Shown piece by piece: positions 10,342-37,055 of a stretch of DNA of 64,000 nt. Numbering within the stretch: the stretch's first letter is position 1; each line of letters starts with the position of its first letter. The DNA comes from Methyloprofundus sedimenti (GTDB taxonomy: Bacteria; Pseudomonadota; Gammaproteobacteria; Methylococcales; Methylomonadaceae). Both the position numbers and the translations under genes were made by a program. The notes beneath the pieces were generated by a model. That model saw only the letters and a list, made by a program, of their open reading frames with translations. It had not been told where the DNA came from and ran no database searches. Where the stretch lies: assembly GCF_002072955.1 (NCBI RefSeq), contig NZ_LPUF01000001.1:2626896-2690895 (forward strand), read 5' to 3'.

Positions 10342-10886
10342 TGGCTATGTCACCGTAAAGTATGGAATTTCATATAACAAGAGCGTATAAGTAAATAAAG
10401 CCCATGTAAATTAAGGAGATAGTTATGAAAGCCCCAGAGTTTTTAGAGTTCATTTCCGAAATAAATCAACTTGACCACCATCAACGCACTGTTCTAACGA
10501 AAGCACTGGATCAACTAGAGGACGAACCTAAGGTTTTTGATTTAATTGAAACAATATTTGATAGCAAAGGTAAATGCCCTCATTGCTCCCATACCGAAAG
10601 CCACAGGCATGGAATAAAAGATGGCCTTCAGCGCTACCGCTGTAAAGCCTGCAAAAAGACATTTAATGCTTTGACAGGGAACGCCTCTTGCTCATCTACG
10701 CCTCAAGTCAAAGTGGCTTGATTACTTAGGAGCTATCGCAGAATCATTGACTGTCCGGCAGGCAGCTAAAGAAATTAATGTGCATCGAAATACAACCTTT
10801 CGATGGCGGCACCGTTTTTTAAGCTGGATTCAGCAGGATCGTCCCAGTGCTCTTCATGGCATTACAGAAGCTGATGAAACCTACTT

Positions 10887-11879
10887 AACCTGAGTTCGGG
10901 ATAAGAAAAGGTGGGCAGTCTTTTGAAAATCTGAAAAAATAGAAACAACCAAGAATTTATTTTTTCTAAGACTGCCCAATGCTAAGTTTAACCCGATTAT
11001 TTTGTGATGTAGATGATTTTTGTAAAACCTTTTTACCCCACTGGGAGAAAACCCAAATAGAAAACGGTGAAAAGAAAAGACGGAAAAAGCGTTGCATTAG
11101 CCCCAGTGAAATAATTACTTTGATTGTTTACTATCATCAGTCAGGGTATGACACATTTAAATGGTTTTATTTACGCTACTTGCCCAAAAACTTATCTAAA
11201 GCTTTCCCAAAGGTGCCGAGTTATAACCGTTTCATTGAATTATTGCCCGATATTATCGGTCCTTTAACGGCTTTTATGCAAACACGTTGTGGCCGAAGTG
11301 AAGGTATTGCATTTGTTGATTCAACACCCCTTTGCGTTTGTAAAAATATTCGTATTCCGCGCCATAAAACTTTCAAAGATGTGGCCCAACGAGGCAAGTC
11401 TTCTACGGGCTGGTTCTATGGGTTTAAATTACACATTATTGTGGATGATCGAGGGGAAATACTTTCTTTTTCAATCACGAAAGGGAATGTTGATGACCGT
11501 AAACCCGTACCAAAATTGGCTAAAAATCTGATTGGAAAGCTTTTTGGCGATAGAGGATATATTTCTAAAAAACTCACTGAACTTTTAGCAACCGATGATG
11601 TTGAGTTAATCACAACTCTCAAGAAAAATATGAAACCACGAGTCATAGCTGCTTTTGATGCACTTTTATTGAGAAAGCGTAGCATTATTGAAACTATCAA
11701 TGATCAACTTAAAAATATTTTTCAGCTTGAGCACTCTAGACATCGTTCGCTTACGAATTATATGATCAATATTGTTGCTTGTTTAGTTGCTTATTCTTAC
11801 CAGGAAAAAAAGCCTGCACTCAACTTACGTAGAGAAGATTTATTACCTTTGTTATGACGTCTTATCCCGAACTCAGGTT
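10887..11879. mobile_element. IS982-family insertion sequence inside copy A
   Basis: A 993-bp element bounded by perfect 20-bp inverted repeats, AACCTGAGTTCGGGATAAGA at 10887-10906 and its complement at 11860-11879. ACTT is duplicated on both sides (10883-10886 and 11880-11883); removing one copy plus the element restores the sequence of IS copy B exactly. The intact ends and ORF suggest it moved recently, after copy A had inserted. Confidence 0.92.
10979..11857 (+). CDS. IS982 family transposase
   Basis: 292 residues with the IS982 pattern: FCDVDDFCKTF near the start, then KKRCISPSEIITLIVYYHQS and GYDTFKWFYLRYLP. The DDE catalytic core follows: AFVDSTPLCVCKN (first Asp), GFKLHIIVDDRGEI, LFGDRGYISKKL (second Asp) and the C-terminal RSIIETINDQLKNIFQLEHSRHRS (Glu). 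Length is normal for the family (about 290-300). No frameshift is visible, so this transposase should be functional. Confidence 0.9.
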   Translation: MLSLTRLFCDVDDFCKTFLPHWEKTQIENGEKKRRKKRCISPSEIITLIVYYHQSGYDTFKWFYLRYLPKNLSKAFPKVPSYNRFIELLPDIIGPLTAFMQTRCGRSEGIAFVDSTPLCVCKNIRIPRHKTFKDVAQRGKSSTGWFYGFKLHIIVDDRGEILSFSITKGNVDDRKPVPKLAKNLIGKLFGDRGYISKKLTELLATDDVELITTLKKNMKPRVIAAFDALLLRKRSIIETINDQLKNIFQLEHSRHRSLTNYMINIVACLVAYSYQEKKPALNLRREDLLPLL

Positions 11880-12452
11880 ACTTACTTGAGTCACATAAAG
11901 GAGAACGCCATCTCAATCGTCAACCAAGGAAACGAGGGGGCTGTGCGACTAAGCGAGGGATTTCTGATGAGCAAATTTGCATTTTAATTGCTCGTGATCG
12001 CTCAAAACAAACCGTAGATTTTGTGACAGGTAATGGCCCAATAAGCAAAATTGTTCTTGATACGCATTTAAAGCCAATACTAGACCAGGATGCCCTCCTT
12101 GTGAGTGATGGCAATCCAACTTATGGTGCATTTTGTAAAGCTGAAAAAGTATCTCATGAAATCGTTAACATGAGTCAAGGGCAGCGGGTGACTAAAGGGG
12201 CCTATCATATACAAAATGTCAATGCATACCACCACCGTTTTAAATCATGGCTAGACCGCTTTCATGGTGTAGCCACCAAGTATTTACCTAATTATTTGGC
12301 TTGGTGCAGAATTATGGATCGGAACCACAATCTAACCCCTGAGCAATTGTTACATTCTGCTCTGGGTGATTTTCAATACTTAACGGTGACATAGCCTTTA
12401 TAATTGACTCATCAGCTTATCAACCGGGAATTGGCTAACAAAACCTAAAAGG

Positions 12453-23221: not shown

Positions 23222-23885
23222 AGAAAAATATCCTGCGCAATCATCTTTTTAACAGACGAGTTCATTTACAAAACAGCGAACTATATTGCCTTTTGAATAT
23301 TTTGTAAATTAAAAAATGATGTTATCCGTGTAATTAACCTACACAGCTGTGCAAATAGAAATTTCATCGGCATACTAGCCTGCTAATGCCGAGTCATATT
23401 GGTATAACTTAAGGTATTCCTCTTTTAATGCCGCGGAGAAATTTAAGAGAGATTAATCAGTGTTTTGAAACGCATAGTGTATAAACAACAAGATACTTTA
23501 AGCTATTCCACCGATATGATTTTCATAGCGATAGCCTATCAGCTGGCTATATAGAACTACTTACCAAGGAACGTGCATGAATAAAAATCAGTGATGGGAA
23601 AAGCAATAGTGTGCCCATCAAGCTACCTCAGATAGACTGATAGCTGTACTATATAAAGATGGGCACAAAAAAGACCTTTGCCCATCCTACATGTTGCTCA
23701 TATTATTTTGTGCATGTTCCAAAATACAGTAGTCCAAGGCAGGTACGTATTTTCCCACGTTATTATTTGCCATTGCTTGCAACATATCAATTAAGGGCAA
23801 ATAATCTGTCAGCGTCTTGAACTACATAATTCTGCAAATGCAGAAATAAAAAGCAAGAAAATGATCTCGTCTATATCAGTGTGAA
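23222..23885. other. intergenic region upstream of speA, with REP-like hairpins
   Basis: TGTGCCCATC at 23610-23619 pairs with GATGGGCACA at 23658-23667, and GATGGGCA (23658-23665) pairs again with TGCCCATC at 23679-23686. This double-hairpin layout resembles the GTAGGGTGGGCA repeat at 45816-45898. The part near 23230-23330 is AT-rich and probably carries the speA promoter. No gene is seen. Confidence 0.5.
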
Positions 23886-25689: not shown

Positions 25690-25857
25690 GAATTCAAGTC
25701 TGAAAAGTCTAGGCATGTTATCAACTGTAGCAATTGTCAGTTCAGGATCTGGTCCCGCGCGACTCAACTAGACGCGCTTCGAAGATAACCCCGATTTCTT
25801 ACAGAGTATTTTTAGAGACTATATAAATATTTCGGTGGGCAGCGATGGATAACATAC
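25690..25857. repeat. direct repeat R1, left copy
   Basis: About 168 bp nearly repeated at 28203-28373: both read GGAATTCAAGTCTGA-like starts, then a shared GGATCTGGTCCCGCGCGACT core, TACAGAGTATTTTTAGAG and a shared end GGATAACATAC. Roughly 90 percent identical by eye. Any small ORF in it is a by-product of the repeat. Confidence 0.75.
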
Positions 25858-25905
25858 GTCCGATTACGCTACGCTAATCGGACCTACCGTGCTACTTCCG
25901 TGTAT

Positions 25906-26319
25906 TCAGACATGGAGCCAGTTTTCCACTGTTAAATTTTTAACCCGCCTAAATTCACGCTCATTTACCGTGATAACGGTTAGACCTAAAGATTGAGCAT
26001 GAGCCGCAATCAATAAATCATGCTGGCCAATGATTAAACCCCGTTTTTCAAGATCAACCCGAATAGCGGCATAAACCTCATCAACCGACGCTTCTAATGC
26101 CAAGATGGGTAAACTGTTTAAAACCTGCTCAACATTGAATGATAATTTAGCGGATTGTTTTTTAGCTGCACCATAGCGTAACTCACACGCCACGATAATA
26201 CTGGTACAACACTCATTTTCCACACCCAATACGTTGATTTTTTCTGCAACCCTACCCGCCGGGTTCTTAATTAACTCAGAAAGAATATTGGTATCCAGCA
26301 AATAACGATACTCAGCCAT
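25906..26319 (-). CDS. vapC: VapC-type PIN-domain toxin
   Basis: 137 residues. PIN-domain ribonuclease acids are visible: LLDTNILSELIKN (Asp9 and Glu14), a middle acid in SVDEVYAAI, and GQHDLLIAAHAQSLGLTVITVNEREFRRV (the D..IAA.A...G...V..N..EF pattern). VapC toxins cut tRNA or rRNA in translation. The ATG overlaps the vapB stop (TGATG), the usual antitoxin-first order. Length is normal. Confidence 0.88.
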   Translation of the reverse strand: MAEYRYLLDTNILSELIKNPAGRVAEKINVLGVENECCTSIIVACELRYGAAKKQSAKLSFNVEQVLNSLPILALEASVDEVYAAIRVDLEKRGLIIGQHDLLIAAHAQSLGLTVITVNEREFRRVKNLTVENWLHV

Positions 26320-26555
26320 CAGAAAATATCTTCAGGTTCTATGGGTAAATCAATAAACTCAGGAAAATCTTCATCAACAGGGGATAAAGTCGCTAACATG
26401 GCAGTTAAGCTTTTTTTCCTGACGGGCTCAATAATTAACTTATCCCCCTCTTTATGAATAATGGCTTCTGTGCCCTCTAATTCAAATTCTTTGGGAATCC
26501 GTATGGCCTGATTACGCCCATTTCTAAATAAACTAACGTGTCGTTCACTGTGCAT
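26319..26555 (-). CDS. vapB: VapB-type antitoxin
   Basis: 78 residues with an AbrB-like N-terminal DNA-binding beta-hairpin: VSLFRNGRNQAIRIPKEF, then EGTEAIIHKEGDKLIIEPV. An acidic, Pro-rich C-terminal tail (VDEDFPEFIDLPIEPEDIF) would wrap the toxin active site. It normally represses its own operon. Overlaps vapC by one base. No other toxin-antitoxin pair is seen next to it. Confidence 0.85.
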   Translation of the reverse strand: MHSERHVSLFRNGRNQAIRIPKEFELEGTEAIIHKEGDKLIIEPVRKKSLTAMLATLSPVDEDFPEFIDLPIEPEDIF

Positions 26556-26629
26556 TTTGTCTACCCCCTAAAATAATAGCATATGCCAAAGCATAGGCTG
26601 CTTAAATAAACTTGTCAATCCCAGTATCA

Positions 26630-26866
26630 CTAAATTTGCGGCGCACGCTCTAAAAGATCACCTTCCCAACATCCGGCTAATGAAGCCAGTGTCGGTTTAG
26701 AGGTCGTTGGTACGGGTTCTGACGCTTCCTGTTCCATCGCAATAAAAATCACTTCAGTGCATCGATGGCATAATTCCAAAGGCACTGGAATTACCTCTTG
26801 CGGGTCATCTATAATTTCTAAAAAGTAAACCCCCAGCTGAACCGGGGGTTTACTTTTTAGAAATTA
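26630..26866 (-). pseudogene. open frame without a start, running through a perfect palindrome
   Basis: On the reverse strand a frame with no usual start codon runs from about 26866 to a stop at 26630-26632. It reads KPPVQLGVYFLEIIDDPQ, then VPLELCHRCTEVIFIAMEQE and PTLASLAGCWEGDLLERAPQ. The text is protein-like and the C-terminus resembles small antitoxin tails, but I cannot name a family. It lies directly upstream of vapB on the same strand. It may be a decayed antitoxin or small regulator that lost its 5' end. Confidence 0.35.
26813..26865. repeat. perfect 22-bp palindrome with 9-base loop
   Basis: The arm 26813-26834 (ending GTAAACCCCC) is exactly matched by its reverse complement at 26844-26865 (starting GGGGGTTTAC), loop AGCTGAACC. 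The stem has a GC-rich top and AT-rich base with runs of T on one side and A on the other, so it could terminate transcription in both directions. It may equally be a mobile palindromic repeat. Confidence 0.8.
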
Positions 26867-26975
26867 CCAATATATGGTTATTGAAAACATGAGTTATTGT
26901 GCTATATATCAATAACCTATAAACAATAAATCCTTAAGTCAACAGCATTGTCTCGGAGTCCTCCCGGTGGGAGCG

Positions 26976-27087
26976 ATGGCATACACTACGATTGATGCTG
27001 CCTGCTTCCCCACTGAGTACCTGCCGATCATGGGACACGCCGAGCCGATATCGTTTAATATAACGATGACGCCGGTTACCGACCCTC
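26976..27087. repeat. direct repeat R2, left copy
   Basis: About 112 bp, GC-richer than its surroundings, repeated at 28084-28196. Shared blocks include CGATTGATGCTGCCTGC, GGGACACGCCGAGCCGAT and CGTTTAATATAACGATGACG, and the end GGTTACCGACCCTC. The inner TCGTTTAATATAACGATGA is partly palindromic. Function unknown; it looks like a mobile non-coding repeat. Confidence 0.75.
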
Positions 27088-27119
27088 AGGATAAAGGGGT
27101 CAGCAAGGGATAAACAGGG

Positions 27120-27225
27120 ATAAAGGGGTCAGAGCCATTTAATGTAAACCTCACATATAGTATATATTAACTTACTGATTATAAAAATTAAAAAATATCT
27201 ATTAAAAAGGGCTTTGACCCCTTTT
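27120..27225. repeat. R3, MITE-like repeat with inverted ends, left copy
   Basis: About 106 bp. The left end AAAGGGGTCAGAGCC is the near-inverse of the right end GGGCTTTGACCCCTT; the interior is AT-rich (TTTAATGTAAACCTCA). A second copy lies at 28383-28488. Inverted ends, small size and no ORF are what one expects of a miniature inverted-repeat element. Confidence 0.75.
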
Positions 27226-27313
27226 CTCCTTTAAGTAATAGCTTTCAGCCAGCACCATCCTCCCCCCGCGACTAATGCCGGCAGTTTCTAATATTTATAC
27301 ATAAGGAGTGCTC

Positions 27314-27898
27314 ATGAGCATCGAAGATTTAAATTACCAAGCAAAAATCATTGCCCCAACTAAACAACTGTATGCACAACTTAGCAAGCAAGCGAATGAG
27401 CTACTTGCCCAAGCTAAAGAATCTGTCTTAGAACTTCATGCCAAAGTTGCTGAAACTGGCTTAGAATTTTATGAGCACCCAATAGACACGGCCACTCGCT
27501 GGCAAGCAGAAGCAACAGAAAAAGGCAATCAACTCTATGCTGATTTCAACGACAATATATTGCCAGCAGTCAAAGCAGATTATGACCAGCTGATTGTTAC
27601 TATGATTGATTACGGACTACAATCGCGCCAAGCATTTCAAGTTTTCCTAGATAATCCAGAACAAATTACCGTTGAAGCATTTACCGCTCTTAATCAAAGC
27701 ATAATGTTCTATCTAAATAAAACACTCGATATATCTTTAGTAGCACTTAAAGGAGTAAGCGATAAAGCTGATGAAATTATCAGCTTATTAATTAAACAAC
27801 CCATGGAAACCATGGAAGCTTTCTATTACCAATCTCTAACTGCGCTGTTAAATAGCTATTTTGATATCGTTTCGTCAGCGCTTGTTTCACTTCAATAA
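27314..27898 (+). CDS. phasin-like helical protein
   Basis: 194 residues from ATG 27314, with AAGGAG (27303-27308) five bases upstream. Almost wholly predicted helix with Ala, Gln, Leu and Lys: LYAQLSKQANELLAQAKESV, then ELHAKVAETGLEFYEHP and QAFQVFLDNPEQITVEAF. The amphipathic, repeat-rich helices and lack of membrane segments recall phasins and apolipoprotein-like proteins that coat storage granules or bind lipid. No PHA genes are nearby, so the call is structural only. It sits between two sets of direct repeats. Confidence 0.5.
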   Translation: MSIEDLNYQAKIIAPTKQLYAQLSKQANELLAQAKESVLELHAKVAETGLEFYEHPIDTATRWQAEATEKGNQLYADFNDNILPAVKADYDQLIVTMIDYGLQSRQAFQVFLDNPEQITVEAFTALNQSIMFYLNKTLDISLVALKGVSDKADEIISLLIKQPMETMEAFYYQSLTALLNSYFDIVSSALVSLQ

Positions 27899-27982
27899 AA
27901 AAGCGGGAATAACTTAGGAATGAGCATGAAATAAAACCAGCACTTTGGGGCGTATTACTTAGCTCGGGTAATGATGCCGAAT

Positions 27983-28022
27983 AAAAGCAAGATGTCATCT
28001 CAAAGGAGAGATCTTGCTTTTT
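27983..28022 (+). terminator. rho-independent terminator
   Basis: AAAAGCAAGAT at 27983-27993 pairs with ATCTTGCTTTT at 28011-28021, followed by more T. It stands about 85 bases after the stop of the phasin-like gene, the right place to end its transcript. Confidence 0.75.
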
Positions 28023-28083
28023 TGTGCTTTGACTCATAAAAAGATTCCTCCTAAGGTCGAAAACACGGGGTCAGGGGAGTAAC

Positions 28084-28196
28084 TATGGCATACACCACGA
28101 TTGATGCTGCCTGCTCCCCCACCCAGTACCTGCCGATCGTGGGACACGCCGAGCCGATGTCGTTTAATATAACGATGACGCCGGTTACCGACCCTC
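28084..28196. repeat. direct repeat R2, right copy
   Basis: Second copy of the 26976-27087 repeat, with a handful of substitutions (for example GGGGGAG against GGGAAG on the reverse strand). A small reverse-strand ORF across it is a shadow of the repeat. Confidence 0.75.
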
Positions 28197-28202
28197 CGAG
28201 CT

Positions 28203-28373
28203 AGGAAATTCAAGTCTGAGAAGTCTCGGCATGTTATCAACTATAGCAATTCGCAGTTCAGGATCTGGTCCCGCGCGACTAAACTAGATGCGCTTCAAAG
28301 ATAAACCCGATTGCTTACAGAGTATTTTTAGAGGCTATATAAATATATCGGTGGGCAGTGATGGATAACATAC
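28203..28373. repeat. direct repeat R1, right copy
   Basis: Second copy of 25690-25857, same orientation, following R2 by six bases. R1 is separate from R2 at the left site but adjacent here, so the repeats moved independently. Confidence 0.75.
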
Positions 28374-28382
28374 TTTCATATT

Positions 28383-28488
28383 GGGATAAAGGGGGCTGAG
28401 CCATTTAATGTAAACCTCATATATAGTAATATTAACTTACTGATTATAAAGATAAAAAATATCTATTAAAAAGGGCTTTGACCCCTTT
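28383..28488. repeat. R3, MITE-like repeat, right copy
   Basis: Second copy of 27120-27225 in the same orientation, ending GGGCTTTGACCCCTTT. Adjacent to R1 on one side and to the inverted-repeat unit at 28494 on the other. Confidence 0.75.
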
Positions 28489-28493
28489 CCTCC

Positions 28494-28645
28494 CAATGTG
28501 AATATACGCTATGAACCGGGGGCATGAACGGATGCCTCCTGGTGCATGAGACTAAAAAAGCATGATTGCAAGACATGAGCGTGTGCGATGTTTTAGTTTT
28601 CAATTGTTAAAAAATAACCTGAATTCGCAATTCAATTCGGGACTT
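28494..28645. repeat. left inverted boundary repeat of the 28.6-33.2 kb segment
   Basis: About 150 bp whose reverse complement recurs at 33192-33338. Shared blocks are CAATGTGAATAT, CGCTATGAACCGGGGGCATG, ATGCCTCCTGGTGCATGAGA, GCATGATTGCAAGA and TTGTTAAAAAATAACC. Inside, GGGGGCAT and ATGCCTCC can pair. This copy has a five-base extra near its inner end (CAATTCAATTCGGGAC). No ORF of interest. Confidence 0.85.
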
Positions 28646-28746
28646 GAACATCCCTCTGGAATTTGCAAGCTATTTTTCCTATCTGCTGGAGATAATACAT
28701 CGGTATGGATTTATACAGCCCTGAATCAATTAAATATTTTAAGCTC

Positions 28747-29223
28747 TTATTCGTCTTTTTTTATCCAGTCGTTTATTACCTTTGCTTGTTCATTATCAAG
28801 TAATTCAGCAAATGCACCTTGTTTAAACCCATCTCTATTAAAATCTAGGAGGTTCGGGAACTTGACACCAGATTCTAAGATTTTGTGTTTTGCAACTGAT
28901 GCAGATATTTTCGGAAAAAATGTAGCAATTATGTTTCCAAAAACAACTTTAACTTGAAAGCCATTGTATTCTCCCCCAGAGGCATCCTTTAACATTTTTA
29001 CCGATGTAACTTGAACTTTATACTTGAACCACGATTGTGGTTTATCATCAGACTTACCACATATGATTAAATAATCGTTAACATCAACTAAGTCAAAGTC
29101 TGCGGCTAATTTTGTTTTGTTTTGATAATATAAAGGATGAGAATATACAACAGGTACCCCTTCATATTCTTCAACTGTTTTAACACATTGATTATGTGGA
29201 GCATAAATTAAGAATGTATTCAT
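28747..29223 (-). CDS. uncharacterised protein, third gene of the UDG-like operon
   Basis: 158 residues, no signal peptide or membrane helix. It begins MNTFLIYAPHNQCVKTVEEY, has beta-rich blocks (VVYSHPLYYQNKT, DYLIICGKSDDKP, WFKYKVQVTSVKML) and ends in a helical tail, FAELLDNEQAKVINDWIKK. The opening resembles small EVE/PUA-like nucleic-acid-binding folds in layout only; I cannot name a family. It follows the UDG-like gene by 52 bases on the same strand, so it is probably co-transcribed and may be its partner. Confidence 0.6.
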   Translation of the reverse strand: MNTFLIYAPHNQCVKTVEEYEGVPVVYSHPLYYQNKTKLAADFDLVDVNDYLIICGKSDDKPQSWFKYKVQVTSVKMLKDASGGEYNGFQVKVVFGNIIATFFPKISASVAKHKILESGVKFPNLLDFNRDGFKQGAFAELLDNEQAKVINDWIKKDE

Positions 29224-29275
29224 AATGGTTTATACCTGTAAAATTTGTAAAAAGAAGTTTAAGCACCTAATAAAG

Positions 29276-30337
29276 TTACATATTTTGTAAAAAAATACCT
29301 ATATCTGAAAAATATTGGTTTGTAACCCCATGTGCAGCGGGATGGTTCATAATTAAATATTTAGTTTCCGTGTTATTCGCATAAAAGAACTTTCCTAAAT
29401 GGGTATTAGATAACTGTAAATCTTGGCCTGCTATTTTTTTCCAGTAATCCACATAACTCATCCCATAAAATATAACTATCTCTGGTTGATGCACTTTTAT
29501 TCGCTCTTTTAGATGCGCAATCCGTCGATCAACATTACTCAGTGTATATAACTCTCGAGACTTCAAAGTTTCAATATTAGAATATTTTCCATATAGCCAA
29601 GATGCTGCCGATGGTGATGGCAAAGGAAGTAGCTCTATAAGGCAGTGGTCACTGTTATGTCGAGCTAATTTATCTCTTTGATAAAGCTTACAGGCTTCAA
29701 GATCCGCATTTTTTCCTTGGTATGTAAGTAATATTCGGATTAATTGTTTCCAGGTATTCTGGAACTTTGGCTGTTGCCTAAAATACTCATCTACCTGGAT
29801 TCCCGTGTGGAATAAGTAAATATCTTCTAATTCCGGTTTTAAGTGATGATTCCAAGTGTTGAGTCTGTTTTGAATTTCTAGCAATGAACTTCCACCACCT
29901 TCTTCCATGCCAATAAACCAGATATCTCCCTCATAATTACCATAACCGTAAAAAGATTCAATATATTTAGCCAGTAAAATATTATCGAGTTTATCTTCAA
30001 GTGTTGTAAAAGGAACTTGTTTAGGTTTCTCAGTATTTATATCTTCTTGTTCACTATCAGAGTTAACAGTTTTACATATCCGAAAAAAATTAAGTCTATC
30101 TTGTGTTGAAGAAGCTATTTCATAGCAATGCTTCAACTTAATAGCAACATCGTAATTGTTACCATTAATCTGATATTTAGCATTCTGTTTGGCTAAATAT
30201 TTCTTATGAGAAACCAGGCTTGAATCTTTTCCTTTGACTCCTCCCCAGTGATGTATAGATTGAAAATGTGTATTAGTGAACCCCTGACTTTCAAGCTTTT
30301 CTAGAAGATCAAGTGTGTTTTGTGGTGAAACTTCCAT
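29276..30337 (-). CDS. uracil-DNA-glycosylase-fold protein with extra N-terminal domain
   Basis: 353 residues. The C-terminal two thirds carry a UDG-like pattern: IWFIGMEEGGGSS (139-151, in the place of the G.xPG water-activating loop), ELLPLPSPSAASW (235-247), EIVIFYGMSYVDYW (286-299) and LIMNHPAAHG (328-337, in the place of the HPS/HPSP DNA-intercalation loop). The N-terminal part (about 8-80) has SIHHWGG...HKKYLAK...NYDVAIKLKH, shared with the 135-residue protein upstream. No signal peptide. Base excision or another nucleic-acid activity is inference; the motifs are divergent. Confidence 0.55.
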   Translation of the reverse strand: MEVSPQNTLDLLEKLESQGFTNTHFQSIHHWGGVKGKDSSLVSHKKYLAKQNAKYQINGNNYDVAIKLKHCYEIASSTQDRLNFFRICKTVNSDSEQEDINTEKPKQVPFTTLEDKLDNILLAKYIESFYGYGNYEGDIWFIGMEEGGGSSLLEIQNRLNTWNHHLKPELEDIYLFHTGIQVDEYFRQQPKFQNTWKQLIRILLTYQGKNADLEACKLYQRDKLARHNSDHCLIELLPLPSPSAASWLYGKYSNIETLKSRELYTLSNVDRRIAHLKERIKVHQPEIVIFYGMSYVDYWKKIAGQDLQLSNTHLGKFFYANNTETKYLIMNHPAAHGVTNQYFSDIGIFLQNM

Positions 30338-30381
30338 AAGAGACCTCGATTGTTAAAAACACTATATTCTTTTTAAGTAGA

Positions 30382-30789
30382 TTAAAAGAAAGGGTACTTT
30401 TCAGTGGTTTGTTTAATGGCTTGGTGTAAACCTATATCATCTAGAATTAAGGAGTCCAGCTGATGGATTCGTTGAGCAACAATATAATTTTGACTATTAG
30501 ACTGATATGCACTTATTTTTTTCAAATAACTCATGTGCGCTTTCACTGATGCTTTACTTCCAAAGTGATGAAGTAATGAAAATGTTTTGTTATCCAAATT
30601 TAAACGGTTCATTTCTTCAATGGTATTTTCAGGTTTTAAAAATTCTTCACTAAGTCTTTGCTCTTTGAGTTTATCAACTAACGAACGAACTTTATCTACA
30701 TCATCTTTATGAATTAGAAAGGTCGTGGATTTAAAGCCCATTCCACTCATTTTATTAAGATACTTTTGGACGGCTTCTATATTTGACAT
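30382..30789 (-). CDS. small protein sharing the N-terminal domain of the UDG-like protein
   Basis: 135 residues, soluble. Residues about 70-115 read LLHHFGSKASVKAHMSYLKK then SQNYIVAQRIHQLDSLIL, matching the neighbour's SIHHWGG...HKKYLAK...NNYDVAIKLKHCYEIA: shared HH[FW]G, H..YL.K, Q.N..NY.VA and a final helix. The opening YLNKMSGMGFKSTTF also resembles the neighbour's LLEKLESQGFTNTHF, with an extra charged helix inserted between. First gene of the operon, 44 bases upstream of the UDG-like gene. A regulatory or adaptor role is inference; no known family recognised. Confidence 0.6.
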   Translation of the reverse strand: MSNIEAVQKYLNKMSGMGFKSTTFLIHKDDVDKVRSLVDKLKEQRLSEEFLKPENTIEEMNRLNLDNKTFSLLHHFGSKASVKAHMSYLKKISAYQSNSQNYIVAQRIHQLDSLILDDIGLHQAIKQTTEKYPFF

Positions 30790-31275
30790 CTACTTAACTA
30801 TTAAAATTTATTGTGTATGTTAAGGTGCATTTTAGTGATTTTGTTAATTTAGTCAACAATTAATTTTAACTGCGAAGTTGGTTGATTGATATTTTTTGAG
30901 TAGAGTTTATATACTTGAGGACAAATAACAGCTATTTATTGAGCACGTATTGACTATAAATTACTCAATAATGTATCGTTAGGGCTCATGGAATTTAGCA
31001 TTGAGGGAGCCAATCAATTTAAATTTTCTCTAGTGTCTTGTCTGGTTGATCGTAAGCGAACGTTCGGCTCGAGAATAATTGAGTTTAGTTATTGAGATGT
31101 TAAACTGTCAGTTCATTACCAAAAGTAGTATCAGGGTGAAATTGAAAGCCCAATAGCCAGGAAAAACCGTGGCTTGAATGGGGCACAAGCTATTTGAAAC
31201 CTCTATTGCATATTTCAATCCTGATTTTAACAACATTGTATCGACACTCCAGATAAATGATCATAGGATATAATT
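30790..31275. other. intergenic region between divergent genes
   Basis: AT-rich spacer separating the reverse-strand UDG-like operon from the forward exported-protein gene. It should hold both promoters. I see no clear palindrome or ORF. Confidence 0.4.
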
Positions 31276-31563
31276 ATGAAAAATAATTGGCCATATTTTG
31301 GATTAGTAATAGCACTTCTTTTTGCGTCAGGGGACCCCAAGGCAGAAGATATAGTGATATACGATAGTGGACTTATATACGAAAACTATTGGGGAGATTT
31401 TGATAGAGTCATTAAGCCCTATAAACGATCGTATAGGAGTAGTGATGATAATAGAAAGAAAAATAGATTAAGAGAAAATAAACGCTATCGTGTCAGAGAA
31501 TATGATAATTATGATGAGGCGGATCAATACGCAGAAGATTTAATGAATGACTATTTCAGATGA
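31276..31563 (+). CDS. small exported protein, Arg/Tyr/Asp-rich
   Basis: 95 residues with a short signal peptide (MKNNWPYFGLVIALLFASGD, then PKA|ED). The mature part is very polar with Tyr, Arg and Asp (DRVIKPYKRSYRSSDDNRKK, then YDNYDEADQYAEDLMNDYF) and lacks Cys. Probably periplasmic and partly disordered. AGGAT precedes the ATG at a suitable distance. No family recognised and no operon partner. Confidence 0.5.
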   Translation: MKNNWPYFGLVIALLFASGDPKAEDIVIYDSGLIYENYWGDFDRVIKPYKRSYRSSDDNRKKNRLRENKRYRVREYDNYDEADQYAEDLMNDYFR

Positions 31564-31804
31564 CTTATATTTTAAACATGTAGTATTTTTGTCTTAATCT
31601 CAATCAAAAGGGTCTCGATTGAAATTGCTTGTTTCAATCCCCGCTTTTGGCTGACAAGCGCCCATCCAGATTCGTAGTTTTAGGCGAATTATAGGGCTAG
31701 GCTGAATGGTCAGTAACCGACCCAAAGGGGGCATTCAATGAATTTCTTTAAATCGCCCGAGTCTATCTGCCTTGTTAGGTTTGTTATGGTTTATATGCTG
31801 AACC

Positions 31805-32788
31805 TTAATGTTTCTCGATAACCATACCATGAACAATGGTGAACCAGCTGAACTGTCTCACCATTCCACCAAATGCATTGCGTCCACGATAGTTACAGCC
31901 AACTTGCCATCCGTTCTTGTTTTGAGATACCGGCGTGCAATTATCAATTTCTATACTGTCGGGGTCATTTGCATACCTTTCAAGGTACCTTTCAACTTCT
32001 CGATAAGAACCATCCCAGGGACTTTGTACAGGAGCCTTACCAAACTTTGCAAGTTTTGCTTCACGTTCATTTCTACTTTTCTCTTCTTTGATTCGTAACT
32101 TTTCCTTTGCTTCTTTAACTTTCACTGAGTAAAAGCTAAGTTTATTTTTATATTTATCATCGTTAGGGTTATAGGCAACAAGTTCTTTGTACAAAGCCAA
32201 ATTTGTTTCGTACTGTGATACAGGAATTTTTTTTAGTTTAGCAAGTATTTCTTTTGTCTTTTCCTTTACCTTCGCCTCTTCTTCTGCTTTTGCTATAGCT
32301 ATCAACCCTGATTTTGCTTTTTCTTGCAAATCCATCAGTTCTTTGTTTTTAGAAGGCAAATATTTTTCAGATAGTGATACAACTCCTTTGTAGTCACTAT
32401 TGCCTAATGCCATTTTAAGTTGATTTAATATCTTGGTTGAATTTTCATTAAAGTAGTCTAAGTTTTGTTGACGAATTGCAGCAACTTTTTCTGCTTTTTC
32501 TTGAGCTTTCTGTGCTATCAACTCTTGAGTGACTCTCTCTTGCTCTCGGTATTGATAATTAAAATACCCAAGCGCTATAAACAATACTAATATTGAAATA
32601 CTTCTTATCTTTACCGAAAGTTTTTTTTTGGTTATTAAGTAAACAAAATTTCTAAATGGTGGGAGCAGTAATAGCGATATTAAAATAAACGACAGCCCGT
32701 GCGAGGGAACTCCAAAAAGAATAACTATTCCTATCAACAAGAACAAGACACCAAAAAACCAATTTAAGGCAAGATACACATACTTCAT
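31805..32788 (-). CDS. membrane-anchored coiled-coil protein of unknown function
   Basis: 327 residues. Three hydrophobic stretches at the start (about 7-27, 30-50, 62-80), then a long Lys/Glu/Ala-rich coiled coil (about 82-250, with LIAQKAQEKAEKVAAIRQQN and AEEEAKVKEKTKEIL). A compact C-terminal domain follows: SPWDGSYREVERYLERYAND, IEIDNCTPVSQNK and GWQVGCNYRGRNAFGGMV, with a Cys pair. This C-terminal domain occurs in other uncharacterised bacterial proteins as I recall, but no function is known to me. Single gene, inside the inverted-repeat-bounded segment. Confidence 0.6.
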   Translation of the reverse strand: MKYVYLALNWFFGVLFLLIGIVILFGVPSHGLSFILISLLLLPPFRNFVYLITKKKLSVKIRSISILVLFIALGYFNYQYREQERVTQELIAQKAQEKAEKVAAIRQQNLDYFNENSTKILNQLKMALGNSDYKGVVSLSEKYLPSKNKELMDLQEKAKSGLIAIAKAEEEAKVKEKTKEILAKLKKIPVSQYETNLALYKELVAYNPNDDKYKNKLSFYSVKVKEAKEKLRIKEEKSRNEREAKLAKFGKAPVQSPWDGSYREVERYLERYANDPDSIEIDNCTPVSQNKNGWQVGCNYRGRNAFGGMVRQFSWFTIVHGMVIEKH

Positions 32789-33191
32789 TCATTTTCTCCG
32801 TCTAGTACTCACGCATCTTTATGATGATTAACCAGTTGTTACTCAGTAGGTATTAGTTTTTTTGCTCTATACATTTTGAGGTATTAAAATTTTATTCCAT
32901 GAGGAATAATCAGTTTTACAGCAGTAACCCAACGTATGATGGTTCTTTGTCGAACTTGACATTTATCGTATCTCAAAGCTTAATAGCGCATCGTTTTCTG
33001 CCTTCGTTAAATTGCTTTATTATCTTATTTTAAAGCAGTTATTGTAGAATTTTTTACCCTTATATCAATTTACCTGCCCTCAATTTTTGTTAAATTTCTA
33101 TATAAGTTGCCAATTTTATAGCTGACTCTATACTAGAAACTTTGACTTTTAATTCTCCTCTGACGTTCTCTTCAGGGAAAATAGAGGATCA
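32789..33191. other. intergenic, no gene seen
   Basis: AT-rich DNA between the coiled-coil gene start and the right inverted boundary repeat. Probably carries the promoter of the reverse-strand gene. No ORF or strong palindrome noticed. Confidence 0.4.
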
Positions 33192-33338
33192 GGTCCCGAA
33201 TTGCGAATTCTGGTTATTTTTTAACAATTGAAAAACTAGAATATCGCACACGCTCAGCTCTTGCAATCATGCTTTTATAGTCTCATGCACCAGGAGGCAT
33301 TTGTTCATGCCCCCGGTTCATAGCGAATATTCACATTG
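33192..33338. repeat. right inverted boundary repeat of the 28.6-33.2 kb segment
   Basis: Reverse-complement copy of 28494-28645, starting GGTCCCGAATTGCGAATTC and ending CGAATATTCACATTG. Identity by eye is about 90 percent. It ends only 14 bases from the stop of the SoxYZ-like gene, so the insertion border abuts core genes. Confidence 0.85.
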
Positions 33339-34854: not shown

Positions 34855-35999
34855 AGCGGGATTATTGCCATTATTGTCATTCCTTGCTGTGCGTATGAAT
34901 TAATCTTTAGTTCCCCTCCGAGCGTTGTAACTCTCTCTTGCATCCCACGTAAACCAAAGCCTGATTTTATACTTTCCATATCACACCCCTGACCGTCATC
35001 CTTTACGCTTAAATAGACACTATTATTTTCAATGCTGAGCTCGATAGCAACATGCCGTGCATTAGCATGGCGTACAATATTTGTCAGACATTCCTGTATA
35101 ACTCGAAACAAATGAATGGTAACGTCCTGTTGCAAAACATCAACCCTATCAGAGCATTCGACTGATACACTGATATTCGGGTTCCTGCTCTGCCATTGCT
35201 TAAGCATATTATCTAACGCGGCTTTTAAGCCAAGCTCAGTTAATATCAATGGATGTAGTTGATGCATCATCGTGCGTACAACCTGCATTAAATGATCACA
35301 GATTTCTGATATCGATTGAGTTATTTTCAGCGTGTCAGATTTTGGATGCCTTGCAGTGACCGCCATTACTTTAATAGCGGTCAGTGATTGCCCTAATTCA
35401 TCATGCAACTCTTGCGCAAGATGTTGTCGCTCCTTTTCCTGAATATTCAACAGGTGTTTTGTTAACGCGCTATTTTCCTGCTGGGCGAGTCTTAGCTCAG
35501 CTGTCATATGATTTATTGCATTGGCAATACTGTCGTATTCCAGCGTATTAAATTCAGGTAATTGATATTTATAATTACCTTTTTCAATGGCCTGTAGTCC
35601 ATCAACAATTTGCTCTATAGATTTTAGCGAGCGGTTAAATGCCAGATTTACAGTAATAAATGCCAGTATGGTAAATAACACAAAAGACAGAAAAAACACT
35701 ATCGTTTCTTGCCAGACTTCGGTAATTTCATCCAGTGGATTCGCTTGAATAGTTAATATACTCTGCTGATCATCAGCGCTGGTAAAGGGATATTCAGTGT
35801 GCGAATAAGAGCCACTTACTAATTTTATAAACCACCCAGGAGGTATATCCTGAGGTTGATCCAGAGCATTATCTCTGACCAGACTAATCACCTTGCCAGA
35901 AGGTTTTTTTAACTGGATATTTAAATGTCGTATAGCGTTAAGTGCGGTGAGTTGCTTGATCCAGTCCCGATTATTCCAGCTTTGCGCAGTATTGTTTTT

Positions 36000-37055
36000 G
36001 GCTATGTCACCGTAAAGTATGGAATTTCATATAACAAGAGCGTATAAGTAAATAAAGCCCATGTAAATTAAGGAGATAGTTATGAAAGCCCCAGAGTTTT
36101 TAGAGTTCATTTCCGAAATAAATCAACTTGACCACCATCAACGCACTGTTCTAACGAAAGCACTGGATCAACTAGAGGACGAACCTAAGGTTTTTGATTT
36201 AATTGAAACAATATTTGATAGCAAAGGTAAATGCCCTCATTGCTCCCATACCGAAAGCCACAGGCATGGAATAAAAGATGGCCTTCAGCGCTACCGCTGT
36301 AAAGCCTGCAAAAAGACATTTAATGCTTTGACAGGAACGCCTCTTGCTCATCTACGCCTCAAGTCAAAGTGGCTTGATTACTTAGGAGCTATCGCAGAAT
36401 CATTGACTGTCCGGCAGGCAGCTAAAGAAATTAATGTGCATCGAAATACAACCTTTCGATGGCGGCACCGTTTTTTAAGCTGGATTCAGCAGGATCGTCC
36501 CAGTGCTCTTCATGGCATTACAGAAGCTGATGAAACCTACTTACTTGAGTCACATAAAGGAGAACGCCATCTCAATCGTCAACCAAGGAAACGAGGGGGC
36601 TGTGCGACTAAGCGAGGGATTTCTGATGAGCAAATGTGCATTTTAATTGCTCGTGATCGCTCAAAACAAACCGTAGATTTTGTGACAGGTAATGGCCCAA
36701 TAAGCAAAATTGTTCTTGATACGCATTTAAAGCCAATACTAGACCAGGATGCCCTCCTTGTGAGTGATGGCAATCCAACTTATGGTGCATTTTGTAAAGC
36801 TGAAAAAGTATCTCATGAAATCGTTAACATGAGTCAAGGGCAGCGGGTGACTAAAGGGGCCTATCATATACAAAATGTCAATGCATACCACCACCGTTTT
36901 AAATCATGGCTAGACCGCTTTCATGGTGTAGCCACCAAGTATTTACCTAATTATTTGGCTTGGTGCAGAATTATGGATCGGAACCACAATCTAACCCCTG
37001 AGCAATTGTTACATTCTGCTCTGGGTGATTTTCAATACTTAACGGTGACATAGCC
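36000..37055. mobile_element. IS1595-type element, copy B (intact)
   Basis: 1056 bp, starting GGCTATGTCACCGTAAAGTA and ending in the imperfect inverse. TTGTTTTT flanks both sides (35992-35999 and 37056-37063), an 8-bp target duplication. Nearly identical to copy A, with only two differences found outside the nested IS. The copy and duplication look fresh. Confidence 0.93.
36082..37053 (+). CDS. ISXO2-like (IS1595 family) transposase
   Basis: 323 residues. N-terminal zinc ribbon CPHCSH...YRCKACKKTFNALTGTPL (about 51-90), a helix-turn-helix (SLTVRQAAKEINVHRNTTFRWRHRF, split in two helices), and a DDE domain: GITEADETYLLESHKG, DALLVSDGNPTYG and AYHIQNVNAYHHRFKSWL, with the HHRFK..L..FHGVATKYLPNYLAW end typical of the group. 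Full length and open, presumably active. The stop codon lies inside the terminal repeat. Confidence 0.93.
   Translation: MKAPEFLEFISEINQLDHHQRTVLTKALDQLEDEPKVFDLIETIFDSKGKCPHCSHTESHRHGIKDGLQRYRCKACKKTFNALTGTPLAHLRLKSKWLDYLGAIAESLTVRQAAKEINVHRNTTFRWRHRFLSWIQQDRPSALHGITEADETYLLESHKGERHLNRQPRKRGGCATKRGISDEQMCILIARDRSKQTVDFVTGNGPISKIVLDTHLKPILDQDALLVSDGNPTYGAFCKAEKVSHEIVNMSQGQRVTKGAYHIQNVNAYHHRFKSWLDRFHGVATKYLPNYLAWCRIMDRNHNLTPEQLLHSALGDFQYLTVT

Follow-up and report, generated by a model that had tools for sequence, protein, structure and literature searches.

The 64,000-nucleotide window that we analysed from Methyloprofundus sedimenti contains five genes between two inverted copies of a repeat of about 150 bp, here called unit U (28494–28649, forward strand) and unit U′ (33185–33338, reverse strand). 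In a global alignment, U and the reverse complement of U′ were identical at 140 of the 151 columns without gaps (92.7%), and 8 further columns contained gaps. BLASTN within the window gave 93% identity over 141 bases (E 8e-56), and an inverted-repeat finder, which reported no other long inverted pair in the window, scored this one at 88% identity across 121 ungapped bases; such similarity is far beyond chance. A preliminary description of this DNA had placed units of about 90% reverse complementarity at 28494–28645 and 33192–33338, next to a SoxYZ-like gene on the right and around five genes that lacked any transposase or recombinase; all of this was borne out, with the unit boundaries slightly adjusted. 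The end of U′ is 13 bases from the stop codon (33352) of a gene encoding a SoxYZ fusion with both the Pfam SoxY and SoxZ domains, the list of plausible open reading frames between the units has exactly five members, and scans with Pfam, NCBIfam, PADLOC and PHROGs detected no transposase or recombinase among the enclosed genes.

The enclosed DNA differs in composition from its surroundings, with a GC content of 33.7% between the units versus 39.7% for the rest of the window; among the 59,455 stretches of that length in the window, the one with the lowest GC content begins at 28587, 59 bases from the first base of the segment. From left to right, the block encodes a 158-aa orphan protein without a family assignment (28747–29223, reverse strand), a 353-aa protein with an N-terminal module and a C-terminal domain predicted to have a uracil/thymine-DNA-glycosylase fold (29276–30337, reverse), a 135-aa protein that shares a stretch of about 65 residues with the N-terminus of the 353-aa protein (30382–30789, reverse), a 95-aa protein without a family (31276–31563, forward), and a 327-aa protein without a confident family, which has two weak PHROGs matches of unknown function (31805–32788, reverse). 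Between the last two genes lies a dispersed repeat (31606–31738), partial copies of which occur at three other places in the genome with 75–84% identity.

For the 353-aa protein, the Pfam match to the UDG superfamily was weak, falling below the cut-off and appearing in 2 of 19 aligned sequences. The structure model built from these 19 sequences was confident in its C-terminal part (blocks of 10 residues from residue 121 at pLDDT 85–98), and its best matches among solved structures were thymine- and uracil-DNA glycosylases, with Z up to 9.5 over about 155 residues. The modelled C-terminal domain thus appears to have a UDG-type fold; likeness of fold is no demonstration of activity. Relatives at 26–45% identity were distributed patchily across cyanobacteria, Chloroflexi, Bacteroidetes, proteobacteria and others (80 of 92 loci kept), and the other four enclosed genes were not found beside them in the fetched loci (80 from the relatives search; E up to 1e-3). 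In two other genomes of the family, the N-terminal module is found with no glycosylase domain attached; in the family relatives L041 and L042, it is joined to a different, unassigned domain. We found no support for the cargo having come from a phage or plasmid, as the 353-aa protein had no match in phages or plasmids, the 158-aa protein had no plasmid match, and neither the 158-aa nor the 327-aa protein had a viral relative. We likewise set aside a defence-system reading, for which PADLOC gave no convincing match.

Inverted repeats of about 140 bp at such identity could support homologous recombination, and the five genes might accordingly be an invertible segment that is flipped by recombination between U and U′. 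We consider this highly improbable: no recombinase is encoded inside, and promoter-like sites in the region show no excess over shuffled sequences.

The gene to the right of U′ provided a reference point for comparison with relatives, as soxYZ is present in 15 of 17 other genomes of the genus. We compared the neighbourhoods of soxYZ in 13 of these 15 relatives, several of which lie on contigs that end 319 to 3,898 bases after the gene (L047, L051, L052, L055 and L058). No match to any of the five enclosed genes was found in the stretches fetched around soxYZ in these 13 relatives. Searching whole genomes for the UDG-fold gene returned 4 of 237 family genomes, including its own, and none of the 17 genus relatives. 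The circumstance that the preliminary description named as contrary to its reading, the same genes present at this place in all relatives and lacking the repeats, therefore does not occur, as judged from the 13 neighbourhoods and from the UDG-fold gene. Downstream of soxYZ, the DNA varies among most of the 13 relatives, with positional neighbours common only to L048, L051 and L052, and to L049 and L058. This turnover of the DNA that follows soxYZ leaves no empty site readable at the genus level; because the downstream neighbours differ, soxYZ marks a breakpoint. We set aside the idea that the unit itself is the native 3′ region of soxYZ, and thereby an ancestral right flank, as no similar sequence is found there in relatives. 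In one genus relative (L057, 6077–11276), a stretch of about 4.4 kb interrupts the soxYZ gene. Based on base composition and absence from relatives, the enclosed genes were probably acquired from elsewhere.

The whole-genome search for the unit that the preliminary description had recommended found two full copies in 4,290,526 bases on 6 contigs, both of them in this window and 4.7 kb apart, and no second block bracketed by U. Many scattered copies, the other outcome named as adverse, thus do not exist for the whole unit but do for the short motif that forms its inner part. Unit pieces of just 21–39 bases were seen in 13 relatives among the 237 family genomes (own genome included), and no piece longer than 39 bases occurred in the 236 relatives, with three candidates scored per genome. 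The unit had no DNA match in plasmid and phage records; two of its 20/21-mers had no exact match in viral contigs and one had none in genome contigs, searches in which diverged copies would be missed.

This copy number bears on the idea that a rare REP- or MITE-like element inserted twice, independently, and came to flank pre-existing genes by chance. Debris of REP and IS type abounds in the region, and the segment even holds another dispersed repeat (that at 31606–31738), as such an account would lead one to expect. Nonetheless, for both members of a two-copy family to fall within 4.7 kb of a 4.29-Mb genome is improbable (approximately 0.2% by simple proportion), and the units sit at the GC boundaries of the block, which leaves independent insertion an unlikely explanation. 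A two-copy repeat around an AT-rich minimum asks for a common cause.

Inspection of the unit revealed two parts, with the inner ~30 bases of each copy (the last ~30 bases of U) corresponding to a short dispersed REP-like motif ending in GGGACYTGA and the outer ~120 bases private to the U/U′ pair. Querying the genome with 28560–28700 returned 25 places at E up to 1, 11 of which, besides both units, reached E 1e-6. The private ~120 bases carry no recognised REP/RAYT signature except one 15-base motif. Directly on the motif of the left unit lies a relic of an IS110-family 3′ end (28641–28681, forward strand), which at 28641–28678 is 92% identical over 38 bases to the corresponding end of an element of that family, about 1.8 kb in length. 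The element has several near-full-length copies at 96–99% identity in the same genome and encodes a transposase with both IS110 Pfam domains. Many copies of its end sit on a target that consists of AATTCGGGAC, AAATCAAAGAC or TTGCAAGAC and then CTGA. Some IS1111-type elements are known to target REP sequences, ISPa11 being an example given in the accessible text of PMC11187229, and the 38-base relic on the unit's inner motif resembles such cases. It differs from them in being a relic, present on the left side only, and nothing ties it to movement of the block. A non-coding RNA reading of the units was also set aside, as RNA folding of U and U′ in the outer-to-inner sense was just moderately better than that of shuffled sequences (z −2.6 and −2.0). 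Rfam returned no match close to the units at E up to 0.5; its three weak matches in the window lie elsewhere, at 23605 and 26816–26871.

To the left of U, we found three further modules that, together with U, form a contiguous run at 28085–28649, each with exactly one other copy in the genome, within 5.2 kb. These are module A (28085–28196), with its second copy A′ at 26976–27087 (94.6% identity), module B (28207–28373), with B′ at 25691–25857 (92.2%), and module C (28383–28493), with C′ at 27117–27229 (95.5%), all on the forward strand. The right end of C abuts the left unit without a spacer. At E 1e-5, none of the three had a match in the 236 family relatives (two candidates scored per genome). 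Across 25691–28493, the two sets have their modules in different orders. Genes for a PIN toxin and a MazE-type antitoxin (25906–26555) lie between the module copies, as does a gene at 27308–27898 that looks phasin-like by eye, belongs to no Pfam or NCBIfam family, and has different neighbours in relatives. Elsewhere in the window, an IS1595-family element is present in two copies, one at 10342–12178 that is interrupted by about 1 kb, judged from repeat spacings, and one at 35999–37053 (Pfam DDE_Tnp_IS1595 at 36082–37053).

Module C is REPIN-like. According to the accessible part of PMC3116915, a REPIN consists of two REPs in inverted orientation around a spacer, and C likewise has two inverted REP-like ends (AAAGGGGTCARAGCC) around a spacer. 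The same genome has 30 matches to Y1 transposases of the RAYT type, 27 of them over the cut-off, and the REP-like end of C is present at 4 of these 30 loci, including both sides of the gene at L101, compared with none of 27 other loci of the genome (hand-picked, some overlapping). Several of the 30 Y1 matches contain stops, and at least two kinds of REP-like ends occur around them. In these respects C has the inverted ends and the link to a RAYT gene in its own genome that mark a REPIN, differing in that REPINs have many genome copies and C has two. Unit U, by comparison, is not an inverted REP doublet: its two target-type motifs point in the same direction.

The arrangement invites a different explanation, that U and U′ are the ends of one composite or long-TIR cassette moved in trans by a transposase encoded elsewhere. 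Its attractions are that the inverted pair lies exactly around low-GC foreign DNA, that the unit has just two genome copies, and that transposase-less composites of low-copy miniature elements are documented, in the accessible parts of PMC4133298 and PMC3913671. As described in the former, TIME-COMP structures resemble the present one in consisting of two low-copy miniature elements, in the same or opposite orientation, around unrelated genes without a transposase inside. TIMEs, however, have 38-bp Tn3-type terminal repeats and unit U has none: 269 and 302 of 500 shuffles reached the scores of the best terminal inverted repeats in it. The same text reports a 5-bp target duplication for TIME-RES elements, which are related to TIMEs, whereas the outer ends of the U/U′ segment share no word longer than 4 bases, with nothing shared at the junction itself. 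Mobile insertion cassettes (MICs), as presented in the accessible text of PMC3913671, likewise have inverted repeats around accessory genes and no transposase inside, both of which were found here. The repeats are nevertheless ~150 bp here versus 24 bp in MICs, no target duplication is present, and no IS in this genome has ends like unit U, so that within its own genome the unit is known from the two copies and not as the end of an autonomous IS. Added to these points against a cassette moved in trans, the plasmid, phage and short-word searches described above did not detect the unit, and we regard such a cassette as somewhat unlikely. No description of this exact arrangement was found in the accessible part of the literature searched.

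With respect to the preliminary description, its suggestion of a composite of REP/MITE units is supported in that the unit has a REP-type ingredient. Of the proposed mobile or invertible cassette, we retain a bracketed accessory segment that is foreign by composition and by comparison with relatives; active mobility and inversion are unsupported, the genome showing neither a target duplication, terminal repeats of the unit, a second bracketed copy nor matching IS ends.

We tentatively favour, at slightly under an even chance, a laterally acquired 4.5-kb accessory block that sits in a rearrangement hot spot between REP-type repeats that were copied locally. The block would have entered downstream of the conserved soxYZ operon, at that hot spot, and the unit would have gained its inverted copy nearby through an event of the kind that duplicated A, B and C, as we infer from the similar divergence of the four pairs (94.6, 92.2, 95.5 and 92.7%). 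The U/U′ pair and the acquired block may have arisen together through repeat-mediated capture or rearrangement, in an order of events that is likewise inferred, and the structure would now be a fossil and not an active cassette. We prefer local copying over a cassette moved in trans because of the missing target duplication, the missing terminal repeats and matching IS, and the parallel duplication of A, B and C. Against this preference, the private part of the unit is nearly devoid of REP/RAYT signatures, as noted above, a position of U and U′ at the low-GC boundaries is equally expected from a transposon with long terminal repeats, and a formerly active transposase may since have disappeared.

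A broader version of local copying, which we consider quite improbable, is that 25691–33338 records stepwise gene capture, with each block leaving a private repeat pair: B′/B around the toxin-antitoxin and phasin-like genes, A′C′/AC around the phasin-like gene, and U/U′ around the five genes. Local copying, perhaps single-strand and linked to REP/RAYT, would then make the brackets at the time of capture.

Overall, accessory blocks bracketed by repeats at hot spots are of an ordinary kind, and what is unusual here is the neatness of the bracket and the adjoining chain of two-copy modules. The anatomy is good and the mechanism unproven, which makes the locus a local curiosity. It is, all the same, a clean case, at a chromosomal hot spot, of accessory genes enclosed by private low-copy repeats and accompanied by no mobility gene, and should the bracket prove to form as genes enter, it would provide a testable route by which REP-type debris aids gene gain in bacteria.
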